This document shows positions 5,449 to 19,001 of a stretch of 64,000 nucleotides of DNA, one piece after another. The position numbers and the translations under genes are program-made. The stretch's first letter is position 1; every line of letters starts with the position of its first letter. Below the pieces are notes generated by a model. It saw only the letters and a list, made by a program, of their open reading frames with translations, did no database searches and had not been told where the DNA came from. The stretch spans positions 1-64,000 of the forward strand of contig NZ_JASHJC010000001.1 in assembly GCF_030733385.1 (NCBI RefSeq), written 5' to 3'. Origin of the DNA: Roseovarius sp. MMSF_3359. GTDB lineage: Bacteria > Pseudomonadota > Alphaproteobacteria > Rhodobacterales > Rhodobacteraceae.

Positions 5449-6150
5449 TCATCGCCAGGTGACATCCCCTAGGAAGATGTACCCCGCGCCGTATATCGTC
5501 TTGATAAGGCGAGGGTTTTTGGGATCTTCGCGGAGTTTCGTCCTGAGCCGTGAGATACGGACATCCATCGCCCGATCGAAGCTGTCCCCGGCGACGCCAC
5601 CAAGAGTTTCCTGCATAGACTGACGCGAAATCAGGCGTTTCGGTCGGTCGAGGAAGAGGCGCAAAACCTCACCCTCGGCATGGGAAAAAGGGATTTCTTC
5701 ACCCTTGTCGTCTTCCAGGACATAGCGGTCGAAATGCGCCACCCAGCCTTCGAACGCTGCGGTCTCAGCGACCTGCCGCACGGGGGTGTCGCGGCGCAGG
5801 CGGGCGCGGATACGGGCCACGACCTCGGCAGGGTCGAACGGCTTGATGATGTAGTCATCCGCGCCAAGTTCCAACCCCGTCACCCGGTCCTGCACCTGCG
5901 CCCGGCCCGAGATGATGATGACCGTGGCCCCCTGCTCCAACGCCAGCCGGTGCACCAATGTCAGCCCGTCCCGATCCGGCAGCGACAGGTCCACGAGGCA
6001 GACATCGGGCGTGACGGATTTCAACGATGCCTCGAACTCGGTCGCGCGGGCGAAGGTCAGGGTGCGAAACCCGGCCTCTTCGAGCGCATCGGCAAGCATG
6101 GTCCGGATCGCCGGTTCGTCGTCGAGGATTGTCACAAGCGGGGCGGTCAT
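5449..6150 (-). CDS. OmpR-family response regulator
   Basis: 233-aa two-component output protein. The receiver domain (residues 1-120) has the acidic pair ILDDEP, phospho-acceptor Asp in CLVDLSLPDRDG, Ser in IIISGRA, and Lys in YIIKPFDP. The C-terminal OmpR winged helix (about 140-228) ends with TIYGAGYIF. Its start shares one base with the stop of the hybrid kinase gene upstream (TGATG), so the two are translated together and very likely form a cognate pair. The input signal is unknown. Confidence 0.93.
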   Translation of the reverse strand: MTAPLVTILDDEPAIRTMLADALEEAGFRTLTFARATEFEASLKSVTPDVCLVDLSLPDRDGLTLVHRLALEQGATVIIISGRAQVQDRVTGLELGADDYIIKPFDPAEVVARIRARLRRDTPVRQVAETAAFEGWVAHFDRYVLEDDKGEEIPFSHAEGEVLRLFLDRPKRLISRQSMQETLGGVAGDSFDRAMDVRISRLRTKLREDPKNPRLIKTIYGAGYIFLGDVTWR

Positions 6151-8051
6151 CAGGAGGCTCCCTGGCTGAGAAAGGCGGTGAGCTGCGCGTCGGAGAAGGG
6201 CTTGCGCAGCACGGGTGCAAGCGACAGGGCGCGCCGGTGCAGCGGGTCATCTGGCGGCAGGGACGTCATCAGGAACGCCGGGCACCGCCCGTCTGGCAAC
6301 GCCTCGATCAGATCGAGGCCGGTTTGCTCACCTTCGAGAGTAATATCGGATAAAAGTGCCGAGATTTCAGGGAGTTCCACCAGGAGCGTCAATGCCTCTG
6401 CAACGCTCGTCGCTTCGACGACGGTGTGACCGGCCTCGCGCAGCATGTCGCGTACCGTCAGGCGCAGATCGGGGCTGTCTTCGACCAGAAGCACCATGCC
6501 GGGATGCAGTGTGGCATCCGCCGGTCGCAATGGCAATTGCAGGGCCACGCGCGCACCCTGTTCGGTATTCGACAGGTCCATCCGCCCACCGGCCATCTGG
6601 GTCATGTCATAGACCATGACCAGCCCGAGCCCCGACCCGTCATCCCCCTTGGTGGTGAAAAACGGCTCCAGTGCGCGGTCTAGTGCGCGTTCGGAGAAAC
6701 CCGGACCAGTGTCAGCCACCGAAAACTCCAGCCAGGTGTCCTGCACCGGCCGGACGCTAAGGGTGATCGTGCCGGACGGGCCGCAGGCATCCCGCGCGTT
6801 CAGCACGAGGTTCAGAAGGGAATCCTGCAACATCCCGGCATCCAGAAGATACGCGCCGGGACCGGCGAGGTTTTCGGTTTTGAACCGGACACTTTGGGGC
6901 AGGGTCGAGCGCGCCAGCGGTTCAAGATCCGACAGGAAAGCGCCGAGATCGGTCGGGACCGGATGGTGTTTGCGGTGACCGGTCATGTCGGCGATGCGGT
7001 TGAGCAGGCTGCCGCCGCGCCGTGCCGCCGACAGGGTCGCGCCGATCAACTCCTCGGCCTCGCCCGGCAGGGCCATGCGTTGCAGCTTGGATTGCATCCC
7101 AAGGATGATGGTCAGCAGGTTCGAGAAATCATGCGCCAGCCCGCTGGTCATCTGCGCGGCCAACTCGCGGCGGCGGGTCTGTTGCAGGGCGGCGCGCGTC
7201 TGCGCCTCTTCGGTGATGTCCATCGACAGGATGTAGACACCGCCTTCGGAATCGTCGGGGGTGAAGGCCGCGCGGATGCGTCGTGTGCTGGGCTGATGGG
7301 TGAATTCAAACACCGATGGCGTGCCGGCAAAGGCATCTTCGAGCCGCGTGTGGATCGATTGATACGCAGCCTCCCCCATCGCTTCCTCGACGGTCAGCCC
7401 GATGATCTCGGACTGGCTGCCCGGCATCACCGAACTCAGCCGTCGGTTGGAATAGGTATAGCGCCGGTCGGGCCCGACATGGGCGATATGGGCGGGCATC
7501 ATCTCGGTCGTCAGCCGGGTGCGGGCCTCGGAGGCGGTCAATTGTCGCTTGGCGGCTTCAAGGGCGGTGATCGTTGCCTCGAGCTGCCGGTTGGTGGTGG
7601 TCAGTTCCTCGGAATAGCCGGTCAACTGGTCGGATAGTTCTTCGGAACGCGCCCGCAACAGCGCCTCCTGCCGTTTGGCGCGGGTGATATCGGTATAGAC
7701 CGTGACCCATCCGCCTTGCGGCAGGGGTGAGCCTTCGACGCTGATCATCCGGCCATTGGCGCGAGGACGTTCCATGTAATGCGGCTCGAACGCGCGGGCC
7801 TGCTGCACCCGGGTCTGGATGAAGTGGTCGATATCGTCGATCGGGCCGTGCTCGCCCCGCTCTGCGAGGTATCGGATCGTGTCCTCGAAATCCGCCCCGG
7901 GCGTCACCAGATGATCGGGAAGGTCGAACATCTCCTGAAATCGGTGGTTGCAGACGGCGAGCTTCAGATCGCTGTCATAGATCGACAGGGCCTGCTGAAT
8001 GAGGTTCAGTCCGGCAATCATCATCTTTTGGGTGTGATCGTTCTCAGCCAT
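6150..8051 (-). CDS. Hybrid sensor histidine kinase (PAS-PAS-HK-REC)
   Basis: 633-aa protein without obvious membrane segments, so probably a cytoplasmic sensor. It has an N-terminal PAS-like domain (about 15-125), a coiled coil (126-180), a second PAS domain (175-285), the phospho-acceptor helix with His307 in GLAHDFSNLL, an ATPase domain with GSGLGL, and a C-terminal receiver with Asp in LLSDITLEG. The frame is open for 62 codons further upstream, but ATG 8051 overlaps the isomerase stop by 8 bp and begins the protein proper. The internal receiver plus a separate OmpR regulator suggests a branched phosphorelay. Confidence 0.9.
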   Translation of the reverse strand: MAENDHTQKMMIAGLNLIQQALSIYDSDLKLAVCNHRFQEMFDLPDHLVTPGADFEDTIRYLAERGEHGPIDDIDHFIQTRVQQARAFEPHYMERPRANGRMISVEGSPLPQGGWVTVYTDITRAKRQEALLRARSEELSDQLTGYSEELTTTNRQLEATITALEAAKRQLTASEARTRLTTEMMPAHIAHVGPDRRYTYSNRRLSSVMPGSQSEIIGLTVEEAMGEAAYQSIHTRLEDAFAGTPSVFEFTHQPSTRRIRAAFTPDDSEGGVYILSMDITEEAQTRAALQQTRRRELAAQMTSGLAHDFSNLLTIILGMQSKLQRMALPGEAEELIGATLSAARRGGSLLNRIADMTGHRKHHPVPTDLGAFLSDLEPLARSTLPQSVRFKTENLAGPGAYLLDAGMLQDSLLNLVLNARDACGPSGTITLSVRPVQDTWLEFSVADTGPGFSERALDRALEPFFTTKGDDGSGLGLVMVYDMTQMAGGRMDLSNTEQGARVALQLPLRPADATLHPGMVLLVEDSPDLRLTVRDMLREAGHTVVEATSVAEALTLLVELPEISALLSDITLEGEQTGLDLIEALPDGRCPAFLMTSLPPDDPLHRRALSLAPVLRKPFSDAQLTAFLSQGAS

Positions 8052-8634
8052 GCTGCACCGCCCAGTCCAGCGCCTGTTCCAGACGATCATCGCCCCAGAA
8101 AAGCTCGTCGCCCACGGTAAAGCTCGGGGCACCGAAAAGACCGCGCCTGGCGGCTTCTTCGGTGGTCTGGCGCAGGGTGTGTTTGACCGCCTCGGTCCCG
8201 GCTTGTTCCAGAATGCCAAGGGGTAGGCCCGCGGCACCGGCGCAGGCCGAGATCACATCCGGGTCGGAGATGTCGAGCTTTTCGGAGAATTCCGCCAGAT
8301 AGACATTGTGCACGAAGGCGACCATCTGCGGACCGGGGTCCGCCGCCGTCGCCACCCGCGCGGCCAGCAGCCCGTTTTGCGGAAACGGGTCGGGCTTGTG
8401 CAGCGTCAGCCCCAGCCGGCCGCATTGCCGCGCCATGTCGCGCCACATGTAATTTCCCTTGGCGGCATAGATGTTGAAAGGTGACGTATGCCACCCCTGG
8501 GCCGCAAAGATCGGACCCAGGAGGAACGGCCGCCAGCGCACCGTGACGCCCGCCTTTGCCGCGCGGGCCGGCAGGCGCATGGCGCTCAGATAGGAGTAGG
8601 TCGAGGCGAACTCGAACCAGAAGTCAATCTTCAT
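8044..8634 (-). CDS. 2-hydroxychromene-2-carboxylate isomerase-like, DsbA-fold protein
   Basis: 196-aa member of the DsbA/GST-kappa fold. The start MKIDFWFEFASTYSYLSAMR has the family's typical strand followed by the SxYSYL segment with Ser in place of the thioredoxin Cys pair. The C-terminal GLFGAPSFTVGDELFWGDDR is the conserved closing motif. Members use glutathione in aromatic degradation (isomerising 2-hydroxychromene-2-carboxylate), but the true substrate here is unknown. ATG 8634 is preferred over an upstream ATG at 8679 because the fold starts there. It is the first gene of the kinase/regulator operon, which could link the pair to aromatic or thiol metabolism. Confidence 0.88.
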   Translation of the reverse strand: MKIDFWFEFASTYSYLSAMRLPARAAKAGVTVRWRPFLLGPIFAAQGWHTSPFNIYAAKGNYMWRDMARQCGRLGLTLHKPDPFPQNGLLAARVATAADPGPQMVAFVHNVYLAEFSEKLDISDPDVISACAGAAGLPLGILEQAGTEAVKHTLRQTTEEAARRGLFGAPSFTVGDELFWGDDRLEQALDWAVQHG

Positions 8635-8856: not shown

Positions 8857-10830
8857 TTGGCACAGTCGCCCCAGGCGACCGGAGGGCTCGCGTCCATTCC
8901 GGCGCTTTTGCAACGCAACGCCAGCCAGTTTGGCAGCAAGGCCGCGTATCGGGAAAAGGAATACGGGATCTGGCAAAGCTGGACCTGGGCCGATACCGAA
9001 CAAGAGATCGAGGCATTGGCGCTTGGGCTTCTGAACCTTGGGGTGAACGAGGGCGATTTCGTTGCCATCATCGGGCGCAACCGGCCCTATTTCTACTGGT
9101 CGATGGTCGCGGCGCAGTCGGTGGGCGCGATCCCGGTTCCGGTCTATCAGGACAGCGCCGCCGAGGAGATGGCCTATGTGATGGACCATTGCGGTGCCCG
9201 TTTCGCGGTGGTCGAAGACCAGGAGCAGGTCGACAAGATCATCGAGATTCAGGACGCGCTCAACCAGTTCGAGCACATGATTTATGTCGATCCCAGGGGC
9301 CTGCGGAAATACGATCATCACAAGCTGCACGAGTTTTCCCATGTGCAGAACCAGGGCCGTGCGGCGTATGATGAATTCATCGGTGACCTCAAGGCGCGGC
9401 GCGAGAAGCTGGATTACGACAGCACCTGTGTCATGCTCTATACCAGCGGGACGACCGGCAAACCCAAGGGCGTTGTCCTGTCGAACCGCAATATCATCGA
9501 GGCGTCGAAATCATCCGCCGAGTTCGACAAGCTGGGTATGGGCGAAGAGGTTCTGGCCTATCTGCCGATGGCCTGGGTTGGCGATTTCATCTTTTCCATC
9601 GGGCAGGCCTATTGGACCGGGTTCTGCGTGAATTGTCCGGAAAGCGCGGACACGATGATGACCGACCTGCGCGAGATCGGCCCGACATATTATTTCGCGC
9701 CGCCGCGGGTTTTCGAGACTCAGCTGACCAACGTGATGATCCGCATGGAAGACGCGGGCCGTTTCAAGCAATGGCTGTTTCACAAGTTCATGGCGCATGC
9801 CCGAAAAGTGGGTCCGGCCATCCTGGACGGTAAACCCGTTGGGGGCCTTGACCGGCTCAAATACCTGCTGGGCAAGCTCTTCATTTTTGGACCGCTCAAG
9901 GACACGCTGGGCCTTGGTCGGGTACGGGTGGGCTACACCGCCGGGGAGGCGATCGGCCCGGAAATCTTTGATTTCTATCGCTCTTTGGGGATCAACCTGA
10001 AACAGCTCTACGGGCAGACCGAAGCGTCGGTGTTCATCACGTTGCAGCCCGATGGCGAAGTGCGAAGCGATACGGTGGGCGTGGCCGCCCCCGGGGTTGA
10101 GTTGCGGATCGCCGAGAGTGGCGAAGTATTTTACCGCAGCCCCGGCACATTCGAGGAATACTACAAGAACCCCGAGAGTACGGCGTCGACCAAGGATGAA
10201 GAGGGATGGGTCGCCACCGGCGATGCGGGGTTCTTTGACGACGAAACCGGGCATCTCAGGATCATCGACCGAGCCAAGGATGTCGGCAAAATGGCCGACG
10301 GGGCGATGTTTGCGCCGAAATATGTCGAGAATAAACTGAAGTTTTACCCCAACATTCTGGAGGCGGTCGTCTTTGGCAACCAGCGCGACGAGTGCACCGC
10401 CTTTATCAATATCGACCTCAATGCCGTGGGTAACTGGGCCGAGCGCAACAATATCGGTTATGCGTCTTATCAGGAGCTGGCCGGGAACCCGCAGGTGCTC
10501 GGAACCATCAAGAGCCATGTGGAAGAGGTCAACCGGTCGCTCGCCGATGATCCGATGCTGGCGCATTGCCAAGTGCATCGTTTTATCGTGCTGCACAAGG
10601 AGCTCGACGCCGATGATGGCGAGATGACGCGGACGCGGAAGGTGCGGCGCGGGGTGATTTCGGACAAGTTCGAAGATCTCCTGGGCGCGCTTTATGACGG
10701 GTCGGATGAGATCTTTACCACCACCGAGGTCACTTATGAAGATGGTCGCAAGGGGTCGATCAGCGCCACGTTGAAGGTCGTTAGTGCCGAGGTGTCGATG
10801 CAGCAGGATCAGAAAGTGGCCGCGGAATGA
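8857..10830 (+). CDS. AMP-forming acyl-CoA ligase of a LIV transporter operon
   Basis: 657-aa cytoplasmic AMP-binding enzyme that would activate a carboxylic acid as acyl-AMP and then acyl-CoA. It has the P-loop MLYTSGTTGKPKGVVLS (about residues 190-206), the YGQTEAS motif, and WVATGDAGFFDDETG followed by a C-terminal domain. The length resembles long-chain acyl-CoA synthetases. The start is TTG, with a strong GGGAGGA ribosome site 7 nt before it and no nearer ATG. It leads an operon with all five LIV-type ABC transporter genes, so its substrate is probably what the transporter imports, such as a fatty, aromatic or branched acid. Confidence 0.9.
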   Translation: MAQSPQATGGLASIPALLQRNASQFGSKAAYREKEYGIWQSWTWADTEQEIEALALGLLNLGVNEGDFVAIIGRNRPYFYWSMVAAQSVGAIPVPVYQDSAAEEMAYVMDHCGARFAVVEDQEQVDKIIEIQDALNQFEHMIYVDPRGLRKYDHHKLHEFSHVQNQGRAAYDEFIGDLKARREKLDYDSTCVMLYTSGTTGKPKGVVLSNRNIIEASKSSAEFDKLGMGEEVLAYLPMAWVGDFIFSIGQAYWTGFCVNCPESADTMMTDLREIGPTYYFAPPRVFETQLTNVMIRMEDAGRFKQWLFHKFMAHARKVGPAILDGKPVGGLDRLKYLLGKLFIFGPLKDTLGLGRVRVGYTAGEAIGPEIFDFYRSLGINLKQLYGQTEASVFITLQPDGEVRSDTVGVAAPGVELRIAESGEVFYRSPGTFEEYYKNPESTASTKDEEGWVATGDAGFFDDETGHLRIIDRAKDVGKMADGAMFAPKYVENKLKFYPNILEAVVFGNQRDECTAFINIDLNAVGNWAERNNIGYASYQELAGNPQVLGTIKSHVEEVNRSLADDPMLAHCQVHRFIVLHKELDADDGEMTRTRKVRRGVISDKFEDLLGALYDGSDEIFTTTEVTYEDGRKGSISATLKVVSAEVSMQQDQKVAAE

Positions 10831-10911: not shown

Positions 10912-11730
10912 ATGCTTGATGCGAGCGAGGGATATACCACCGAGGATGGCCGCAAGATCGGCGGCGTGGTGATGGAGATGAAGAACATCACCTTGCGTTT
11001 CGGCGGGGTGGTCGCGATCCAGGACATCAGTTTTGATATCCGCCAGGGCGAGATCCGCGCGATAATTGGGCCGAACGGTGCCGGTAAGTCGTCGATGCTC
11101 AACGTGATTTCGGGTTTCTACCATCCGCAGGAGGGTGAGGTCTGGTACAAGGGCGAACGGCGCCCGGCCATGAAGCCTTACGAGGTGGCCCGGCAGGGGA
11201 TCGCGCGGACCTTCCAGAACATTGCGTTGTTCGAGGGTATGTCGGTGCTGGATAATGTCATGACCGGTCGCATCCGGCAGATGAAGTCGGGGCTCTTTGC
11301 GCAGGCACTCTGGAAGGGGAAAGCCGAGCGCGAAGAGGTTGAGAACCGGGCATTCGTGGAGCGGATCATTGATTTCCTTGAGATCCAGCATATTCGCAAA
11401 ACCCCGGTGGGGCGGTTGCCTTATGGGTTGAAGAAGCGCGTGGAGCTGGCGCGGGCGCTGGCGGCGGAGCCGTCGATCCTGCTGCTGGACGAGCCGATGG
11501 CGGGGATGAATGTCGAGGAGAAAGAGGACATGAGCCGCTTTGTTCTCGACGTGAATGACGAGTTCGGCACCACGATTGCGCTGATCGAGCATGATATGGG
11601 CGTGGTGATGGACCTCTCCGACCGTGTTGTCGTGATGGATTACGGCAAGAAGATCGGGGACGGTACACCCGACGAGGTGCGCGGCAACCAGGCGGTGATC
11701 GACGCCTATCTGGGGGTGGCGCATGACTGA
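10912..11730 (+). CDS. LIV-type ABC transporter ATPase (LivG-like)
   Basis: 272-aa ATP-binding subunit of a branched-chain amino-acid-family importer. It has Walker A GPNGAGKSS (about residues 54-62), Walker B ILLLDEPMAG, the following His in LIEHDMGVV, and a C-terminal LivG tail ending in VIDAYLGVAHD. In place of the usual LSGGQ signature it reads VGRLPYGLKKRVELARAL, common in this subfamily. It has a 21-residue N-terminal extension before the ATPase fold. It lies 81 bp after the ligase gene and just upstream of the LivH-like permease. Confidence 0.92.
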   Translation: MLDASEGYTTEDGRKIGGVVMEMKNITLRFGGVVAIQDISFDIRQGEIRAIIGPNGAGKSSMLNVISGFYHPQEGEVWYKGERRPAMKPYEVARQGIARTFQNIALFEGMSVLDNVMTGRIRQMKSGLFAQALWKGKAEREEVENRAFVERIIDFLEIQHIRKTPVGRLPYGLKKRVELARALAAEPSILLLDEPMAGMNVEEKEDMSRFVLDVNDEFGTTIALIEHDMGVVMDLSDRVVVMDYGKKIGDGTPDEVRGNQAVIDAYLGVAHD

Positions 11731-11765: not shown

Positions 11766-12752
11766 ATGCCTGAACAACTGGTTTTTGCCATGGAGGTGTT
11801 CCTCAACGGGCTGATGGCGGGCGTGCTTTATGCGCTGGTCGCGTTGGGCTTTGTGTTGATCTACAAGGCCTCGGGTATCTTCAACTACGCCCAGGGCGTG
11901 ATGGCGCTTTTCGCGGCACTGACGCTGGTCGGGATCATGGAAGGGCAGGTGCCGTTTGCGCACCTGATAAACGCCATGCTCGGGACCGAGATTCACCATT
12001 TCGGCTGGCATGTGCCGGGGGTTCTGGCGATCCTCTTTACGATGGCGGTGATGGTCGGGCTGGCGTGGATCGTCAATACGCTGATCTTCCGGCATCTGGT
12101 CAACCAGGAGCCGATTATCCTTTTCATGGCGACGATTGGCCTTGCCTATTTCCTCGAGGGGTTCGGGGATATCATGTGGGGGGCGGATATCAAGAAGCTG
12201 GACGTGGGGCTGCCGCAGGGGATCAATCTTTGGATCGACGAGACCACGTTCAACATCTTCGATTACGGCTTCTTCATCGACAATCTCGATATCGTGGCGA
12301 CGGTGGTGGCGGCGCTGTTGGTCTGCGCGCTGGTGATTTTTGCGCAATATACCAAGCAGGGCCGCGCGATGCGGGCCGTGGCGGATGACCACCAGGCGGC
12401 GCTGTCGGTTGGTATTTCGCTGAACTTCATATGGGTGATGGTCTGGTCAGTGGCTGGCTTCGTGGCACTGGTGGCCGGGATCATGTGGGGCACCAAGTCG
12501 GGCGTGCAGTTCTCGTTGTCGTTGATTGCCTTGAAGGCACTGCCGGTGCTGATGCTGGGCGGGTTCACCTCGATCCCGGGCGCCATTGTGGGCGGGCTCA
12601 TCATCGGGGTTGGCGAGAAGCTCTTTGAGTTCGGCTTTGGCCCGATGCTGGGCGGTGCGACCGAGAACTGGTTTGCCTATGTGCTGGCGCTGATCTTCCT
12701 TGTGTTCCGACCGCAGGGGTTGTTTGGCGAAAAGATCATCGAGAGGGTGTGA
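11766..12752 (+). CDS. LIV-type ABC transporter permease (LivH-like)
   Basis: 328-aa inner-membrane permease of the LivH family with about eight hydrophobic helices. The N-terminus has the family's NGLMAGVLYALVALGFVLIY segment and the C-terminal part has ALPVLMLGGFTSIPGAIVGG. It would form half of the translocation pore with the LivM-like permease. Its stop shares a base with the ATG of the small membrane-protein gene that follows (TGATG). Confidence 0.93.
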   Translation: MPEQLVFAMEVFLNGLMAGVLYALVALGFVLIYKASGIFNYAQGVMALFAALTLVGIMEGQVPFAHLINAMLGTEIHHFGWHVPGVLAILFTMAVMVGLAWIVNTLIFRHLVNQEPIILFMATIGLAYFLEGFGDIMWGADIKKLDVGLPQGINLWIDETTFNIFDYGFFIDNLDIVATVVAALLVCALVIFAQYTKQGRAMRAVADDHQAALSVGISLNFIWVMVWSVAGFVALVAGIMWGTKSGVQFSLSLIALKALPVLMLGGFTSIPGAIVGGLIIGVGEKLFEFGFGPMLGGATENWFAYVLALIFLVFRPQGLFGEKIIERV

Positions 12753-13003
12753 TGGTTCAATTGCTGCCTTTCTTTCGTGTCCTGCCGCCGCTGCTGTTCG
12801 TTTATGGCATCGTGATGATCATTGCGAATATTGCCGAATTACGCGCGACCGCTTCAATTTCGGGTATGCAGGGCAGTTTCCTGTCAGAAATGCGGATCGC
12901 TTATCTCGCTGGAATTGCGCGTTCTTTCTATGAGCTGTTTTTCTTTGCGGCGATGGCAGCGGTAGTTACCGCAGCCAACAGATATCTGGAGAGGCAGATA
13001 TGA
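12752..13003 (+). CDS. Small two-helix membrane protein inside the LIV operon
   Basis: 83-aa protein starting MVQLLPFFRV, with ATG 12752 overlapping the LivH stop (TGATG). A GTG three bases earlier is also possible. It has two hydrophobic segments, about residues 8-28 (PFFRVLPPLLFVYGIVMIIA) and 57-75 (IARSFYELFFFAAMAAVVTA), and a basic C-terminus. No family recognised. Codon use is more AT-rich than in the neighbouring permeases. Its position between the two permease genes suggests an accessory or regulatory subunit of the transporter, which is inference from context. Confidence 0.65.
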   Translation: MVQLLPFFRVLPPLLFVYGIVMIIANIAELRATASISGMQGSFLSEMRIAYLAGIARSFYELFFFAAMAAVVTAANRYLERQI

Positions 13004-13018
13004 TGTTTTCTTCACAGT

Positions 13019-13069
13019 CCGGGCGGGGCGACTGCGTGTCGCTCTGCGCCACGACACCCGCCCGCCCGG
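13019..13069 (+). repeat. Nested GC-rich hairpin between permease genes
   Basis: A 9-bp inverted repeat CCGGGCGGG (13019-13027) and CCCGCCCGG (13061-13069) encloses a smaller hairpin GCGAC/GTCGC (13028-13042). There is no T-run, so it looks like an mRNA processing or stability structure rather than a terminator. Confidence 0.55.
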
Positions 13070-13117
13070 CACCTTCGTTTGGGCGCATGACTGACACGAA
13101 TTCGGGAGTGATCTGAG

Positions 13118-14194
13118 ATGTTTTATCGTGAAGCCGGTGACTTCAAGACATCCTATGTGGATGACAACCAGACCTTTCCGATCAAGTTCGACCGGTATCG
13201 GTATTATGTCGTGCTCTTCGCAGCTTTTGCGATCGTGCCGTTCATCATCAATGACTATTGGGTCAATGCGGTTTTCCTGCCGTTCCTGATCTATGCGATT
13301 GCGGCGATTGGGTTGAATATCCTCACCGGGTATTGCGGGCAGGTCTCGCTTGGCACCGGCGGGTTCATGGCCGTGGGGGCCTATGCCTGCTACAAGCTCA
13401 TGACCGGGTTTCCCGAGGTCAGCATTTTCATTCACATCATCCTGTCGGGCGGGATTACCGCGGCGGTTTGCGTGGTGTTCGGATTACCGAGCCTCAGGAT
13501 CAAAGGGTTTTACCTCGCCGTGGCGACGCTAGCGGCGCAGTTCTTCCTCGTCTGGCTCTTCAACAAGGTAAGCTGGTTCTACAACTACTCCGCCTCGGGG
13601 CAGATCAACGCGCCGGAGCGGACGATCTTTGGCATCGCGGTCACCGGTGCGCAGACGGCACCCTGGGCGGCCTATCTCTTCTGCCTTATTTTTACCTTTG
13701 CCAGCGCGATCATTGCCCGCAACCTGACGCGCGGGATGACCGGGCGGAAATGGATGGCGATCCGGGATATGGACATCGCGGCCGAGATCATCGGGGTCAA
13801 CCCGCTCAAGGCCAAGCTGAGTGCCTTTGCGGCCTCCGGTTTCTTCGTGGGCATCGCGGGCGCGCTCTTCTTCGCGGTCTACCTGGGCGCCGTCGAGGTA
13901 GGCGAGGTCTTTGGCATCACCAAATCGTTCCTGGTGCTCTTTATGATCATCATCGGCGGGCTGGGGTCGATCTTTGGCAGCTTTGCCGGGGCGGCCTTCC
14001 TCGTGCTGCTGCCGGTGCTGTTGAAGAACGTGTTGGTGGGGACGCTGGGCTGGCCCACGGACTTGGCGGCGCATCTGGAGTTCATGATCGTCGGCGCGTT
14101 GATTGTCATCTTCCTGATTGCCGAGCCGCACGGGTTGGCACAGCTTTGGCGCGTGGCGAAGGAGAAACTGAGGCTTTGGCCCTTCCCGCACTGA
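13118..14194 (+). CDS. LIV-type ABC transporter permease (LivM-like)
   Basis: 358-aa inner-membrane permease. It has the LivM hallmarks: AIGLNILTGYCGQVSLGTGG near residues 63-84, and an EAA-like cytoplasmic loop around TGRKWMAIRDMDIAAEIIGV, with about ten hydrophobic helices. A soluble stretch of about 35 residues precedes the first helix. It pairs with the LivH-like permease, from which it is separated by the small membrane-protein gene and a nested hairpin. Confidence 0.93.
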   Translation: MFYREAGDFKTSYVDDNQTFPIKFDRYRYYVVLFAAFAIVPFIINDYWVNAVFLPFLIYAIAAIGLNILTGYCGQVSLGTGGFMAVGAYACYKLMTGFPEVSIFIHIILSGGITAAVCVVFGLPSLRIKGFYLAVATLAAQFFLVWLFNKVSWFYNYSASGQINAPERTIFGIAVTGAQTAPWAAYLFCLIFTFASAIIARNLTRGMTGRKWMAIRDMDIAAEIIGVNPLKAKLSAFAASGFFVGIAGALFFAVYLGAVEVGEVFGITKSFLVLFMIIIGGLGSIFGSFAGAAFLVLLPVLLKNVLVGTLGWPTDLAAHLEFMIVGALIVIFLIAEPHGLAQLWRVAKEKLRLWPFPH

Positions 14195-14271
14195 GGGGCA
14201 TTGAGAGAGGTGCGGCGGGCCGAGGTCCGCCCCGCGTAACATCGGACAAAACCAAGGGAGGAATTAACCCG

Positions 14272-15552
14272 ATGAAGAAAACACTAATCACAGCCGCCGT
14301 GGCGGCCATGGTGGCAACAGGTCCGGCACTGGCCGACCTGACCATCGTCGATACGAGCTATCGGACCGGGCCTTATGCGGCGAACGGTATTCCGTTCTCG
14401 GACGGGTATCAGGATTACTTCACGCTGCTCAATGAGCGCGATGGCGGCATCGGCGGCGAGAAGATCAATATCGTCGAATGCGAGACCGGCTATAACACCG
14501 AGAAAGGTGTTGAATGCTATGAGGCGACCAAGGGCGAAGGCGCGCTTGTCTATCAGCCGCTGTCGACGGGCATCACCTATCAGTTGATCCCGAAAGCGAC
14601 CGCTGACGGCATCCCGCTTCACACCATGGGCTATGGCCGGACTTCAGCCAAGAATGGTGCGGTGTTTAAATATGTCTTCAACTACCCGGCCAACTATTGG
14701 GACGGTGCCAGCCTCGCGGTCAGCCATATTCTTGAGCAGAATGGTGGCGACATCAGTGGCAAGAAAATCGCGCTGGTCTATCACAACTCCGCCTATGGCA
14801 AGGAGCCGATCCGTACGCTGGAAGAGCTGTCGAAGAAACATGGGTTCGAGCTGAGCTTGCTGCCCGTTGACCACCCCGGCCAGGAACAGAAATCACAATG
14901 GCTGCAAATCCGCCGCGAGAAGCCTGACAATGTCCTGATGTGGGGCTGGGGCGTGATGAACCAGGTGGCCATCCAGGAGGCCGTCAACATCCGCTTCCCG
15001 ATGGAAAACTTCATCGGTATCTGGTGGTCCGGGTCGGAAAACGACGTGAAAGCCGCGGGTGACAAGGCCAATGGTTACAAGGCACTGACCTTCCACAACC
15101 TTGGGTCCGACTACCCGGTCTATGCCGATATTCAGCAGTACGTCGTGGATGCAGGCAAGGCCGCTGGCGCCGGCGATCAGGTGGGCACGGTGCTATATAA
15201 CCGTGGCATGTATGCGGCGATGCTGGCCTCAGAGGCGATCAAGACCGCGCAGGAAATCCACGGTGTTTCCGACATCACCTCGCAGCAAATGCGCGACGGG
15301 ATGGAAGCCCTGGAGATGACCGAAGCCAAGATGGAGGCCATCGGCCTGCCGAACTTCGGCCCCGAATTCAAGGTGAGCTGTGAAAACCACGGCGGCAACG
15401 GTTTTGGCGCCGTGTCGCAATGGGATGCGGCCGCCGGTGAGTTCAAGCTGATCACCGAGTACTACCAATCCGATCAGGACGTGATCCAGCCGCTGGTTGA
15501 AGAAGACAGCGCCGCCTTCGCGTCGGAAAACGGCATCGAGCCGGGTTGCTGA
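14272..15552 (+). CDS. LIV-type periplasmic substrate-binding protein
   Basis: 426-aa exported protein with a signal peptide (MKKTLITAAVAAMVATGPALA) cleaved after residue 21 or so. The mature part is a type-I periplasmic binding fold of the kind used by transporters for branched amino acids, amides and aromatic or aliphatic acids, with ISGKKIALVYHNSAYGKEPI as the hinge-proximal strand. A strong GGGAGGA ribosome site precedes the ATG, as expected for the most abundant component. Short hairpins flank the gene. The ligand cannot be read from sequence, and the co-transcribed CoA ligase argues for a carboxylic acid. Confidence 0.92.
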   Translation: MKKTLITAAVAAMVATGPALADLTIVDTSYRTGPYAANGIPFSDGYQDYFTLLNERDGGIGGEKINIVECETGYNTEKGVECYEATKGEGALVYQPLSTGITYQLIPKATADGIPLHTMGYGRTSAKNGAVFKYVFNYPANYWDGASLAVSHILEQNGGDISGKKIALVYHNSAYGKEPIRTLEELSKKHGFELSLLPVDHPGQEQKSQWLQIRREKPDNVLMWGWGVMNQVAIQEAVNIRFPMENFIGIWWSGSENDVKAAGDKANGYKALTFHNLGSDYPVYADIQQYVVDAGKAAGAGDQVGTVLYNRGMYAAMLASEAIKTAQEIHGVSDITSQQMRDGMEALEMTEAKMEAIGLPNFGPEFKVSCENHGGNGFGAVSQWDAAAGEFKLITEYYQSDQDVIQPLVEEDSAAFASENGIEPGC

Positions 15553-15670: not shown

Positions 15671-16498
15671 ATGCTGGATATCACCGAAGACCCCAAGGAC
15701 GCCCTGCTGGAAGTCAACAATATCGAGGTGATCTATAATCATGTGATCCTCGTGCTGAAGGGCGTGAGCCTCAAGGTGCCGAAAGGCGGCATTACGGCGC
15801 TGCTCGGCGGTAATGGCGCGGGCAAGACGACGACGCTCAAGGCGATTTCCAACCTGTTGAAATCCGAGCGTGGAGAGGTCACCAAGGGTTCGATCACCTA
15901 TCGCGGGGAGCGGGTGCAGGATCTGGTGCCGTCGGATCTGGTCCGCAAAGGTGTCATCCAGGTGATGGAAGGCCGCCACTGTTTCGAACACCTGACCGTT
16001 GAGGAAAACCTCCTGACCGGGGCCTATACACGTGGGTCGAGCCGGGGTGAGATCGACGCTGATCTGAACATGGTCTACGACTATTTCCCGCGCCTGAAAG
16101 AGCGGCGCAAGAGCCAGGCGGGCTATACCTCGGGCGGGGAACAGCAGATGGTCGCCATTGGCCGCGCCTTGATGAGCCGGCCCGAGACGATCCTTCTGGA
16201 TGAGCCGTCGATGGGGCTCGCGCCGCAGCTTGTGGAGCAGATTTTCGGGATCGTGAAATCGCTCAACGAGGAGGAAGGGTATACCTTCCTTCTGGCGGAG
16301 CAGAACACCAATGTCGCGCTCAGGTTTGCCCATTACGGGTACATCCTGGAGTCGGGCCGCGTGGTGATGGATGGTCTCGCTTCGGACCTGCGCGAGAACC
16401 CGGATGTGAAGGAATTTTACCTCGGTATGTCCGACGAAGGGCGCAAGAGCTTCCGGGATGTGCGCAGCTACCGCCGCCGGAAGCGGTGGCTGAGCTGA
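15671..16498 (+). CDS. LIV-type ABC transporter ATPase (LivF-like)
   Basis: 275-aa second ATPase of the importer, with Walker A GGNGAGKTT (about residues 46-54), signature TSGGEQQMVAIGRAL, and Walker B ILLDEPSMGLAP. It is about 30 residues longer than typical LivF, with a basic C-terminal tail (SFRDVRSYRRRKRWLS). It forms a heterodimer with the LivG-like subunit. Its stop overlaps the ATG of a small downstream gene by one base. Confidence 0.92.
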   Translation: MLDITEDPKDALLEVNNIEVIYNHVILVLKGVSLKVPKGGITALLGGNGAGKTTTLKAISNLLKSERGEVTKGSITYRGERVQDLVPSDLVRKGVIQVMEGRHCFEHLTVEENLLTGAYTRGSSRGEIDADLNMVYDYFPRLKERRKSQAGYTSGGEQQMVAIGRALMSRPETILLDEPSMGLAPQLVEQIFGIVKSLNEEEGYTFLLAEQNTNVALRFAHYGYILESGRVVMDGLASDLRENPDVKEFYLGMSDEGRKSFRDVRSYRRRKRWLS

Positions 16499-16791
16499 TG
16501 ATTGTGAATATTGTCGACAGGAGGTCCCGGAAATACCGGTGGCAGACAGTCAACGCGGTTATGGAAAACGCCTGGCAGGACAATGGATGCCCGGATTCGG
16601 ATCAGGCGCGGAAGGATTGTGAGTATCAACTGACCTATGCTGAGCGCGCCAACATTTCGGTGTCCGAGGCCGTGGCGTGGGGCATGGCCGAAAGAGCAGA
16701 AGTTACACTTCACCTCTACGACGAAGGAGCGGGGATTGGGACGACCCGATCCTTGTCTGAGCTAACCAAAGTCCCAGAGGGAGGCGCGTGA
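16498..16791 (+). CDS. Small uncharacterised protein translationally coupled to LivF
   Basis: 97-aa soluble protein starting MIVNIVDRRSRKYRWQTVNA. ATG 16498 shares a base with the LivF stop codon, and a GTG at 16486 is less likely. The middle is acidic and polar (QDNGCPDSDQARKDCEYQLT), and there is no signal or membrane segment. I recognise no domain. It is the last gene of the LIV operon, ending 10 bp from the convergent gene on the other strand. Confidence in the gene rests on the coupling and intact frame. Confidence 0.55.
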   Translation: MIVNIVDRRSRKYRWQTVNAVMENAWQDNGCPDSDQARKDCEYQLTYAERANISVSEAVAWGMAERAEVTLHLYDEGAGIGTTRSLSELTKVPEGGA

Positions 16792-16801
16792 GCAGATGAC
16801 G

Positions 16802-17650
16802 TTAGCCTTGCGTCAGCTTCGCCCGCATTTCCTCGATCAACTCCAGCGCCTCTTCGCGGGTGTTGCGGATGTTGGGGCGGAAGCCGGCGGATTCGGCCCG
16901 AAGGCGGATGTCGGCTTCGGTCTCGGATCCCGCCGCGTAGCGGACCGAGCCAAGCGATCCGGCCTCGTTCAGGCGTTTGCCGCGATGGGCGTATTGGATC
17001 CACGCGCCGGGCAGGATTTGGCAGCCGTTCATGTTCACGAGGAAAAACCAGCGCCGGTCGCTCTCCTTGATGCGCTCTTCGAGGTAGTCGTAGAAATCGT
17101 TCACATCGCGCGAATGGTTGAACGTAAAGTGCGAGAAATCCACGTCCATGATCACGCGGGCCTCGTCAAACTTCACGCGGCGGACAAAATCCGACAATTC
17201 GTAATTGCGCTCAAGCACCAGCTTTTTGCGCCGGGTCGACGGGATTTCGCGGATGCGGGCGATGGCCGCGTCGCGGTCGGAAAAGAGGTTGGGATCGAAC
17301 GCCTCGGTATTGGCGGCCCGCTCGATCTGTCGACGGGTCACGTCGGAGGCATCAAAACGCACCGAGCCCATGGAATGCGCCATGTTGAGCGCCTTGCCGC
17401 GCCGGGAATAGGCGGTCCAGGCGACCGGGTCGATGCGGGTGCCGTTGAGATTGACCAGAAAGAACCATTTTTCCTCACCGGTCGCGGCAATGCGCGCCTC
17501 GAGCCGGTCATACATCCGGTTCACGATCTCGGAACTGTCGAAATGAAAATCCGAAAAATCGGCCTCCATGGCCTGCAACGCGTCATGAAAGGCTATGCGG
17601 CGATCAAGGTCGGCATCGCTGATCGCGGTCGTGCTGTGCTGGTCCGTCAT
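16802..17650 (-). CDS. Internally duplicated protein of unknown function
   Basis: 282-aa soluble protein made of two similar halves about 129 residues apart. Residues 32-130 and 162-260 share FSDFHF/FSHFTF, KWFFLVNLNG/RWFFLVNMNG, YSRRGKALN/YAHRGKRLN, MGSVRFDA/LGSVRYAA, and a closing NLFSDRDAAIARI/NIRNTREEALELI helix. Each half looks like an alpha/beta domain of about 100 residues, possibly STAS-like, but I cannot assign a family. The start MTDQHST at 17650 has a GGAGAA ribosome site, and ATG 17665 is an alternative. It is divergent from the PaaK-like ligase gene, with 130 bp between the starts. Confidence 0.8.
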   Translation of the reverse strand: MTDQHSTTAISDADLDRRIAFHDALQAMEADFSDFHFDSSEIVNRMYDRLEARIAATGEEKWFFLVNLNGTRIDPVAWTAYSRRGKALNMAHSMGSVRFDASDVTRRQIERAANTEAFDPNLFSDRDAAIARIREIPSTRRKKLVLERNYELSDFVRRVKFDEARVIMDVDFSHFTFNHSRDVNDFYDYLEERIKESDRRWFFLVNMNGCQILPGAWIQYAHRGKRLNEAGSLGSVRYAAGSETEADIRLRAESAGFRPNIRNTREEALELIEEMRAKLTQG

Positions 17651-17780
17651 ACTCAAATTCTCCATGAAATCTCTCAGGAGTTCGCGCGGTATGCAAATGT
17701 ATGCAATTTACTGCCCGAGCCGGTGACCCAAATCAACATGTCAACCTGTCGCGCCCCCGCAGACAGGCAAAGGATGGCCG

Positions 17781-19001
17781 ATGTCCCAGTATTTTGATGA
17801 TCTAGAAACCCGCAGCGCCGATGCCCGTGCCGACGCGATTGCCCAGGATTTGCCCGCGCAGATCATACGCGCGCAGGGCCTTTCCGGCTATGGTCAGACG
17901 CTCGCAGACGTCTCGCCCGACAGCATCCGAAGCATCGAAGACCTGGCGGCGCTGCCGGTCTTGCGCAAATCTGATATGGGTCGCGCGCAAGGTGAAGCTG
18001 CGCCTTTCGGTGGGCTGACCACGCGACCGGCGAATGGGTTTGCGCATGTGTTTCAATCGCCGGGGCCGATCTACGAGCCGGGTGGGGACAGTCATGACTG
18101 GTGGCGGATGGGGCGCTTCCTGCATGCCTGCGGCGTGGGGGCGGACGATATCGTGCAGAATTGCTTTGGCTATCACCTGACCCCGGCGGGCATGATCTTT
18201 GAAAACGGCGCGCGGGCGGTTGGGGCGACGGTTTTGCCCGCGGGTACCGGTCAGACCGAGCTTCAGGTGCGCGCCGCGGCGGATATCGGCTCGACCGCCT
18301 ATGCCGGGACGCCCGATTACCTCAAGATCATCCTCGACAAGGCGGATGAGATGGGTGTGACGCTCAACATCACCAAGGCGGCGGTCGGGGGCGGCGCGCT
18401 CTTCCCGTCACTGCGTCAGGAATATGCCGATCGCGGCATCTCTTGCCTGCAAAGTTATGCCACCGCCGATCTGGGCAACATCGCCTACGAATCCCCCGCG
18501 ATGGAAGGCTTGATCGTCGATGAGGGCGTGATCGTCGAGATCGTAACCCCCGGCACCGGCGATCCGGTCGCGCCCGGCGAGGTGGGCGAGGTCGTTGTCA
18601 CGACGCTGAACCCGGATTACCCGCTCATCCGTTTCGCCACCGGCGACCTCAGCGCGCTGATGGAAGGCGACAGCCCTTGCGGCCGCACCAACCTGCGCAT
18701 CAAGGGCTGGATGGGTCGCGCCGACCAGACCACCAAAATCAAGGGCATGTTCGTTCGCCCCGAGCAAGTCGCGGCGCTGGTTGCCCGCCATGACGAAGTG
18801 ACCCGCGCACGCGTCATCGCCAGCCGCGAGGGCGAATCCGACGTGATGACCGTACAGATCGAAGCCGATGGCGGCGCGCCGGAAGGCTATGCCAAATCGG
18901 TCGTCGAGGCGCTGAAGCTCAAGGGCCGGATCGAGGTCGTTGCGCGCGGCAGCCTTCCCAACGACGGCAAAGTGATAGAAGATCAACGCAGCTACGATTG
19001 A
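17781..19001 (+). CDS. Phenylacetate-CoA ligase-like adenylate-forming enzyme
   Basis: 406-aa protein with the overall layout of PaaK-family CoA ligases. FATGDLSAL near residue 293 is the A7 motif, and IKGMFVRPEQV near 316 is the A8 hinge and start of the C-terminal domain. NDGKVIEDQR near the end carries the expected catalytic Lys region. The glycine/threonine-rich phosphate-binding loop usual in PaaK is replaced by FQSPGPIYEPGG (residues 91-102), and the YGxTE motif reads YATADLG. It may be a diverged subfamily with a different phosphate loop. The nearby LIV transporter and acyl-CoA ligase suggest aromatic or fatty acid activation. Confidence 0.82.
   Translation: MSQYFDDLETRSADARADAIAQDLPAQIIRAQGLSGYGQTLADVSPDSIRSIEDLAALPVLRKSDMGRAQGEAAPFGGLTTRPANGFAHVFQSPGPIYEPGGDSHDWWRMGRFLHACGVGADDIVQNCFGYHLTPAGMIFENGARAVGATVLPAGTGQTELQVRAAADIGSTAYAGTPDYLKIILDKADEMGVTLNITKAAVGGGALFPSLRQEYADRGISCLQSYATADLGNIAYESPAMEGLIVDEGVIVEIVTPGTGDPVAPGEVGEVVVTTLNPDYPLIRFATGDLSALMEGDSPCGRTNLRIKGWMGRADQTTKIKGMFVRPEQVAALVARHDEVTRARVIASREGESDVMTVQIEADGGAPEGYAKSVVEALKLKGRIEVVARGSLPNDGKVIEDQRSYD

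Follow-up and report, generated by a model that had tools for sequence, protein, structure and literature searches.

What is the role of a gene that stands on the opposite strand between an importer ATPase gene and a CoA ligase gene in Roseovarius sp. MMSF_3359? We analysed a stretch of 64,000 nucleotides (contig NZ_JASHJC010000001.1, positions 1 to 64,000; hereafter the window) in which this gene accompanies a cluster whose products appear to take up an organic acid and join it to coenzyme A. A response regulator, a hybrid sensor kinase and a DsbA-like gene on the minus strand are followed by plus-strand genes for a FadD-like synthetase, LivG, LivH, an 84-residue protein, LivM, LivK, LivF and a 101-residue protein, then by the gene in question on the minus strand and a PaaK-like ligase on the plus strand:

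5449..6150, minus strand: OmpR-type response regulator (NCBIfam models for OmpR, VirG and the like reach E 1e-45 to 1e-42, short of their cut-offs)
6150..8237, minus strand: PAS-PAS-HisKA-HATPase-receiver hybrid sensor kinase (Pfam; HisKA below cut-off)
between the hybrid kinase and the FadD-like gene, minus strand: DsbA-like gene (labelled by reading)
8857..10830, plus strand: FadD-like acyl-CoA synthetase (NCBIfam FadD11 model, E 4e-79, below cut-off)
10912..11730, plus strand: LivG-like ABC ATPase (labelled by reading)
11766..12752, plus strand: LivH-like permease (labelled by reading and operon order)
13118..14194, plus strand: LivM-like permease (labelled by reading and operon order)
14272..15552 (start approximate), plus strand: LivK-like periplasmic binding protein (Pfam Peripla_BP_6, E 2.1e-39)
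15671..16498, plus strand: LivF-like ABC ATPase (Pfam ABC_tran, E 2.4e-26; the name LivF by reading)
16802..17650, minus strand: tandem protein of 282 residues with two predicted STAS-fold units (other possible start 17665)
16811..17203, minus strand: its C-terminal predicted STAS-fold unit (residues 150-280)
17237..17611, minus strand: its N-terminal predicted STAS-fold unit (residues 14-138)
17651..17780, no strand: divergent intergenic region between the tandem gene and the PaaK-like gene (from coordinates)
17781..19001, plus strand: PaaK-like AMP-dependent CoA ligase (NCBIfam PaaK models, E 2e-47 and 3e-33; Pfam AMP-binding, E 1.3e-5; all below cut-off)

The 101-residue open reading frame (16486-16791) overlaps the end of livF, has no family and recurs only in L122 and L127 among the 80 loci of the tandem gene that we compared.

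The 282-residue protein is an internal duplication. Its reading frame spans 16802-17665, with the stop codon at 16802-16804, and the length is counted from the second methionine (17650), the other possible start lying 15 bases upstream. In a self-alignment, residues 13-136 and 153-275 match over about 124 positions with a BLOSUM62 local score of 256, compared with a mean of 29 (s.d. 5.3, maximum 58) when the second half was shuffled 1000 times, which bears out the tandem duplication and shared motifs described in the initial annotation; the CoA ligase gene from which it called this gene divergent is the PaaK-like gene on the opposite strand. Comparison with five Roseovarius relatives gave dN/dS values of 0.08-0.18 with substitutions mostly at third codon positions, so the reading frame is under purifying selection. 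Across 64 half-domains, R5, R71, R85, R113, W65, N108 and A116 (N-half numbering) are invariant. The earlier claim of conserved Asn and Arg residues in both halves thus stands for arginine, with these four invariant positions, and for the Asn of RGK-LN and of PN(L/I), which are conserved over both halves together, but not for the Asn of FLVN (N67), which is at least 90% conserved in the N half and not across both halves pooled. The conserved residues, which had been taken to suggest a ligand site, could equally be structural or form a protein interface.

Neither Pfam nor NCBIfam holds a model that accepts the protein, in agreement with its initial description as a member of no known family. 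Weak, scattered matches were all that a Pfam scan of the 65 aligned members returned (best E 0.0006), and searching solved structures with a profile produced a single match, meaningless at E 0.3. The Pfam STAS and SpoIIAA-like families were absent from the hmmscan matches of the window protein at E <= 1, and from the 25 of 39 families listed for the 65 members. With hhalign, the domain profile reached probabilities of 1.0 percent against 20 STAS sequences and 0.2 percent against nine SpoIIAA-like sequences, both shallow profiles, the same level as the 0.2-1.6 percent obtained with five unrelated controls. ULD_2, the weak best match in Pfam (E 0.0035, short of the cut-off; 29 of the 65 members match it at E <= 1, with 0.0006 as the lowest value), was set aside because it covers residues 59-91 only and because the fold matches are to STAS domains.

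Those fold matches came from AlphaFold2 models. The model of the whole protein (pLDDT 87.4, pTM 0.49) contains two copies with the same order of strands and helices, and the low pTM leaves their relative placement open; the N-terminal unit modelled on its own reached pLDDT 94.8 and pTM 0.86, while the C-terminal unit was taken from the whole model. In comparisons with solved structures (VIA), the N half matched 2q3l with Z 9.7 (rmsd 2.8 over 100 residues), essentially tied with SpoIIAA (1tid, 9.6) and 4xs5 (9.4), and the C half matched 4xs5 with Z 12.5 (rmsd 2.5 over 116 residues), SpoIIAA (1tid) with 11.9 and RsbS (6jhk) with 10.9. Matched separately, both halves thus retrieve the same STAS structures, and the sheet and helices of both models follow the STAS order. 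Foldseek gave best E values of 0.026 and 0.004 with probability 1.00 and none at or below 0.001; lower rows of the fold lists are partly non-STAS (8sxg, Z 8.5 and 6.9, and several low-probability Foldseek rows), and a viral fold library returned weak matches only, some of them STAS-like. That each half adopts a STAS fold is therefore well supported at the level of predicted models, and the earlier suggestion of a STAS-like fold is borne out by the leading solved matches for both. The predicted fold is shared with SpoIIAA, RsbS and the STAS domains of SulP/SLC26 proteins (PF01740), from which the protein differs in its lack of profile similarity and of a conserved phosphorylatable serine, in its tandem units and in its own invariant residues. 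SpoIIAA-like proteins (DUF3478, PF11964), represented by 2q3l, head the matches for the N half and likewise show no profile similarity, in this case to a shallow profile of nine sequences.

A single copy is present in the source genome, and the closest named relatives are Roseovarius proteins with 92% and 94% identity. A match at E <= 0.001 is present in 65 of 394 genomes belonging to the same family; by our own reading of the listing, 57 of these carry a full-length tandem copy, and in eight the match is partial, broken or distant, including other builds of the domain in G004, G388 and G340. A half-domain profile matched 8 of 385 genomes of the class and 6 of 378 in a phylum sample, the source genome included in both; all six belong to the same class, and the share of other classes in the sample is not stated. 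A mobile origin is unsupported: phage and plasmid records contain no match, and no match to a viral contig was confirmed. Among the 80 loci, L137 was untranslated and L127 and L140 carry an in-frame stop in the given range, that of L140 falling beyond the natural end; the alignment joins 64 of the remaining 77 to the window protein, and two L039 rows were dropped at a further step. The stop in L127 (10001-10804, Tropicibacter naphthalenivorans) falls in the first half, and this copy is apparently a broken gene in place.

The setting of the gene is conserved. Requiring LivF and PaaK to lie no more than 2.5 kb away, on whichever side, and on the strand opposite to the gene, we found the tandem gene reversed between livF and a PaaK-like ligase gene in 62 of the 72 loci with room on both sides, mostly within a fadD-livGHMKF-paaK cluster; FadD was present in 58 of these 62 and LivG in 59, beyond LivF and within the stretch available. 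The other ten comprise one with LivF slightly farther away (L134), two with PaaK only (L135, L141) and seven with neither. In 20 clusters without the tandem gene, livF runs straight to paaK, with a gap of 24-192 bases in 18 and of 320 and 785 bases in two; these were the top of the PaaK list, hence a non-random set, and in one of these genomes (G277) another contig holds a fragment of the tandem gene. This direct joining makes the tandem gene look like a reversed insert in the operon.

Related units also occur in other builds. Single-domain homologues, the search for which the initial annotation had proposed, do exist: one is bare (L043) and four have an N-terminal extension (L041, L160, L161 and L162). 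Five YdiF-type CoA transferases (L045, L163-L166) carry an extra C-terminal unit, unnamed by Pfam and distantly related to the half-domain. A profile built from tandem proteins only matched four of the five significantly (E 2e-11 to 1e-5, Z=5000) but not the fifth, L166 (0.02), while 4600 shuffled sequences gave no match at E 10 or better. The solved structure of E. coli YdiF covers residues 5-498 of the 647 in L163, so the C-terminal unit is an addition; this unit alone gave one match among solved structures, at E 0.95. In contrast to the window protein, the unit in these fusions is single and covalently part of the enzyme, and that of L163 lacks the AW and RGK motifs. A 651-residue frame in G1115 may be a further CoA transferase fusion.

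STAS domains generally act by binding partners. Our tentative reading, which we favour while holding it short of an even chance, is that the protein is soluble and non-catalytic and binds partners as a regulator or scaffold of carboxylate-CoA activation, the partner most likely being at the CoA-activation end of the module. Its two units would act through partner binding, on the PaaK-like ligase (17781-19001), the FadD-like ligase (8857-10830) or both; binding would tune ligase activity or assembly, perhaps in answer to an acyl-CoA or receiver-type signal. We infer that the role is regulatory, and likewise which protein is the partner, in which direction the effect goes and whether a ligand is involved. 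Units fused to CoA transferases and two CoA ligases alongside make control or scaffolding of CoA activation the likeliest role, with an ABC ATPase next as partner, and the fusions are separate evidence for acyl-CoA metabolism. By the title of its entry (3ny7), the YchM STAS domain was solved with ACP. By hand tally, 55 of the 57 genomes that hold a full-length tandem copy also encode PaaK at E <= 1e-100, compared with 231 of 337 others (p 1.4e-6 in a naive Fisher test that ignores species history and shared ancestry). Counting against this reading, 231 of the 286 genomes with such a PaaK have no full-length tandem copy, two genomes (G065, G145) carry the tandem gene in another setting with no PaaK match and no FadD at E <= 1e-100, and 10 of 72 loci are without the full setting.

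Should the partners instead be the ABC ATPases LivF and LivG, with the STAS units controlling assembly or activity of the importer, the protein would resemble MlaB, a small STAS-fold protein whose gene neighbours that of an ABC ATPase; this ATPase, MlaF, is bound by MlaB and depends on it for stability (PMC7367683). We consider this unlikely. The tandem gene does adjoin livF in the 62 loci, and L162, with its kinase-like part, is encoded downstream of a gene for a Peripla_BP_6 binding protein and of frames that we read by eye as Liv permeases and ATPase. Across 58 loci, however, its pairwise distances follow those of the ligases (Spearman 0.54 for PaaK, 0.50 for FadD) more closely than those of LivG (0.38), LivF (0.29), LivK (0.26), LivM (0.21) and LivH (0.16), in correlations that take no account of shared ancestry and in which LivF, highly conserved at a mean distance of 0.12, carries little signal. 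The known fusions are to CoA transferases, and none to ABC proteins was seen among the ten distant members looked at. The transporters differ too: MlaFEDB moves phospholipids, whereas the gene here lies not in an MlaFEDB operon but beside a Liv-type importer, with a Peripla_BP_6 protein and an ABC ATPase, and two CoA ligases. The window protein is moreover tandem, and its models end in a helix, while MlaB is described as being without the fifth strand and last helix (PMC7367683).

The LivHMK cassette (11766-15552 in the window; loci L071-L150) was itself of two types, LivK being about 45-50% or 65-90% identical to that of the window, with the second type in 17 of 58 loci. LivG, LivF, FadD and PaaK stay alike across both types, so that on sequence comparison the permeases and binding protein were apparently exchanged within the operon. 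The distances of the tandem gene do not track this exchange in the 58 loci.

Distinctly unlikely, in our assessment, is an independent regulator without a particular link to the cluster, its position reflecting one old insertion kept by descent. On a PaaK and LivF tree of 114 rows (taken from 141 locus entries; 97 distinct sequences, with several genomes represented twice), presence of the gene requires 10 changes, at least six of them on well-supported branches, and remnants persist at the same place, one with a stop (G390) and one degenerate (G316); the gene is therefore dispensable. Judged from sequence, this pattern would fit one old arrival followed by repeated loss. The 16 loci compared outside the cluster are heterogeneous, their scanned neighbours being of unrelated function, and the only settings shared among them are that of six or seven loci (Histidinibacterium, Salibaculum halophilum, Octadecabacter and kin), again with genes of unrelated function, and that of L070 and L142, which look like one genome met twice. 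The two genomes without either ligase also agree with independence from the cluster. Such independence sits poorly with a place kept in 62 of 72 loci and with the strong purifying selection among Roseovarius copies, and the related unit on CoA transferases points separately to acyl-CoA metabolism. Two of the most diverged tandem copies (L038, 8306-9172; L039, 8120-8971) lie outside the fadD-liv-paaK cluster.

We regard as quite improbable an output or adaptor role in two-component signalling, in which receivers would read the family and the tandem form would relay a signal from the hybrid kinase (6150-8237) and response regulator (5449-6150). This idea arises from L041, L161 and L162, in which a HisKA-like domain precedes the unit (Pfam E 7e-6, 4e-5 and 1e-4, just below the curated cut-off) and has its phospho-acceptor His replaced by Asp or Glu in all three; the tandem form, however, has no such domain. 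A lone receiver gene adjoins the unit gene in L041 and in L160, which has one unit behind an N-terminal part that is shorter and, as recovered, lacks its start, and one lies elsewhere in the locus of L162, but by eye L161 has no receiver-like frame within its 12-kb stretch. The L162 locus also encodes a short-chain fatty acyl-CoA regulator (ScfRs) and an 892-residue histidine kinase, in which Pfam names only HisKA and HATPase and whose N-terminus we take to resemble the SLC5 type of CrbS. Relatives of the window kinase occur in 41 of the 80 loci, regardless of locus length, yet also beside 7 of the 20 chosen clusters without the tandem gene, several others of which end early. SpoIIAA and RsbV have a cognate anti-sigma kinase; the kinase near the tandem gene is of the HisKA type. 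That the protein is an anti-anti-sigma factor of the classic type, under the control of an RsbW/SpoIIAB-type kinase, is highly improbable even though SpoIIAA and RsbS are among the nearest solved folds, given the lack of profile similarity to STAS families and a phosphorylatable residue at the start of helix 2 that, in a correspondence set by eye against STAS sequences of the genome, is not conserved among 65 members (Ser/Thr in 18 at residue 76 and in 1 at residue 215, and in 11 each at the positions just before).

Returning to the preferred reading, control at the level of CoA activation, we found by title in the open-access papers searched no such STAS protein together with a CoA ligase, branched-chain amino acids or Roseobacter; tandem STAS wording led only to SLC26 or SULTR proteins, and no paper among them joined at least three of the four terms STAS domain, degenerate histidine kinase, DHp domain and response regulator. 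The protein belongs to a family that is new in sequence but known in fold, built here in tandem and encoded in a metabolic context that is conserved, and a predicted fold is now assigned to a family unnamed in Pfam and NCBIfam. It is possible, if on the whole somewhat doubtful, that this undescribed STAS-fold family links signalling to the joining of carboxylates with CoA in Alphaproteobacteria through its three builds, one in tandem, one with the unit behind a His-less kinase-like domain and often close to a lone receiver, and one fused to CoA transferases; STAS modules would then control the formation of acyl-CoA directly, at the protein level. Sigma factors, stressosomes, anion transporters and one ABC transporter are already known to be switched by STAS domains. 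If our suggestion is true, CoA ligases and CoA transferases would join that list, and the family would offer a handle on how marine roseobacters control the uptake and activation of organic acids.
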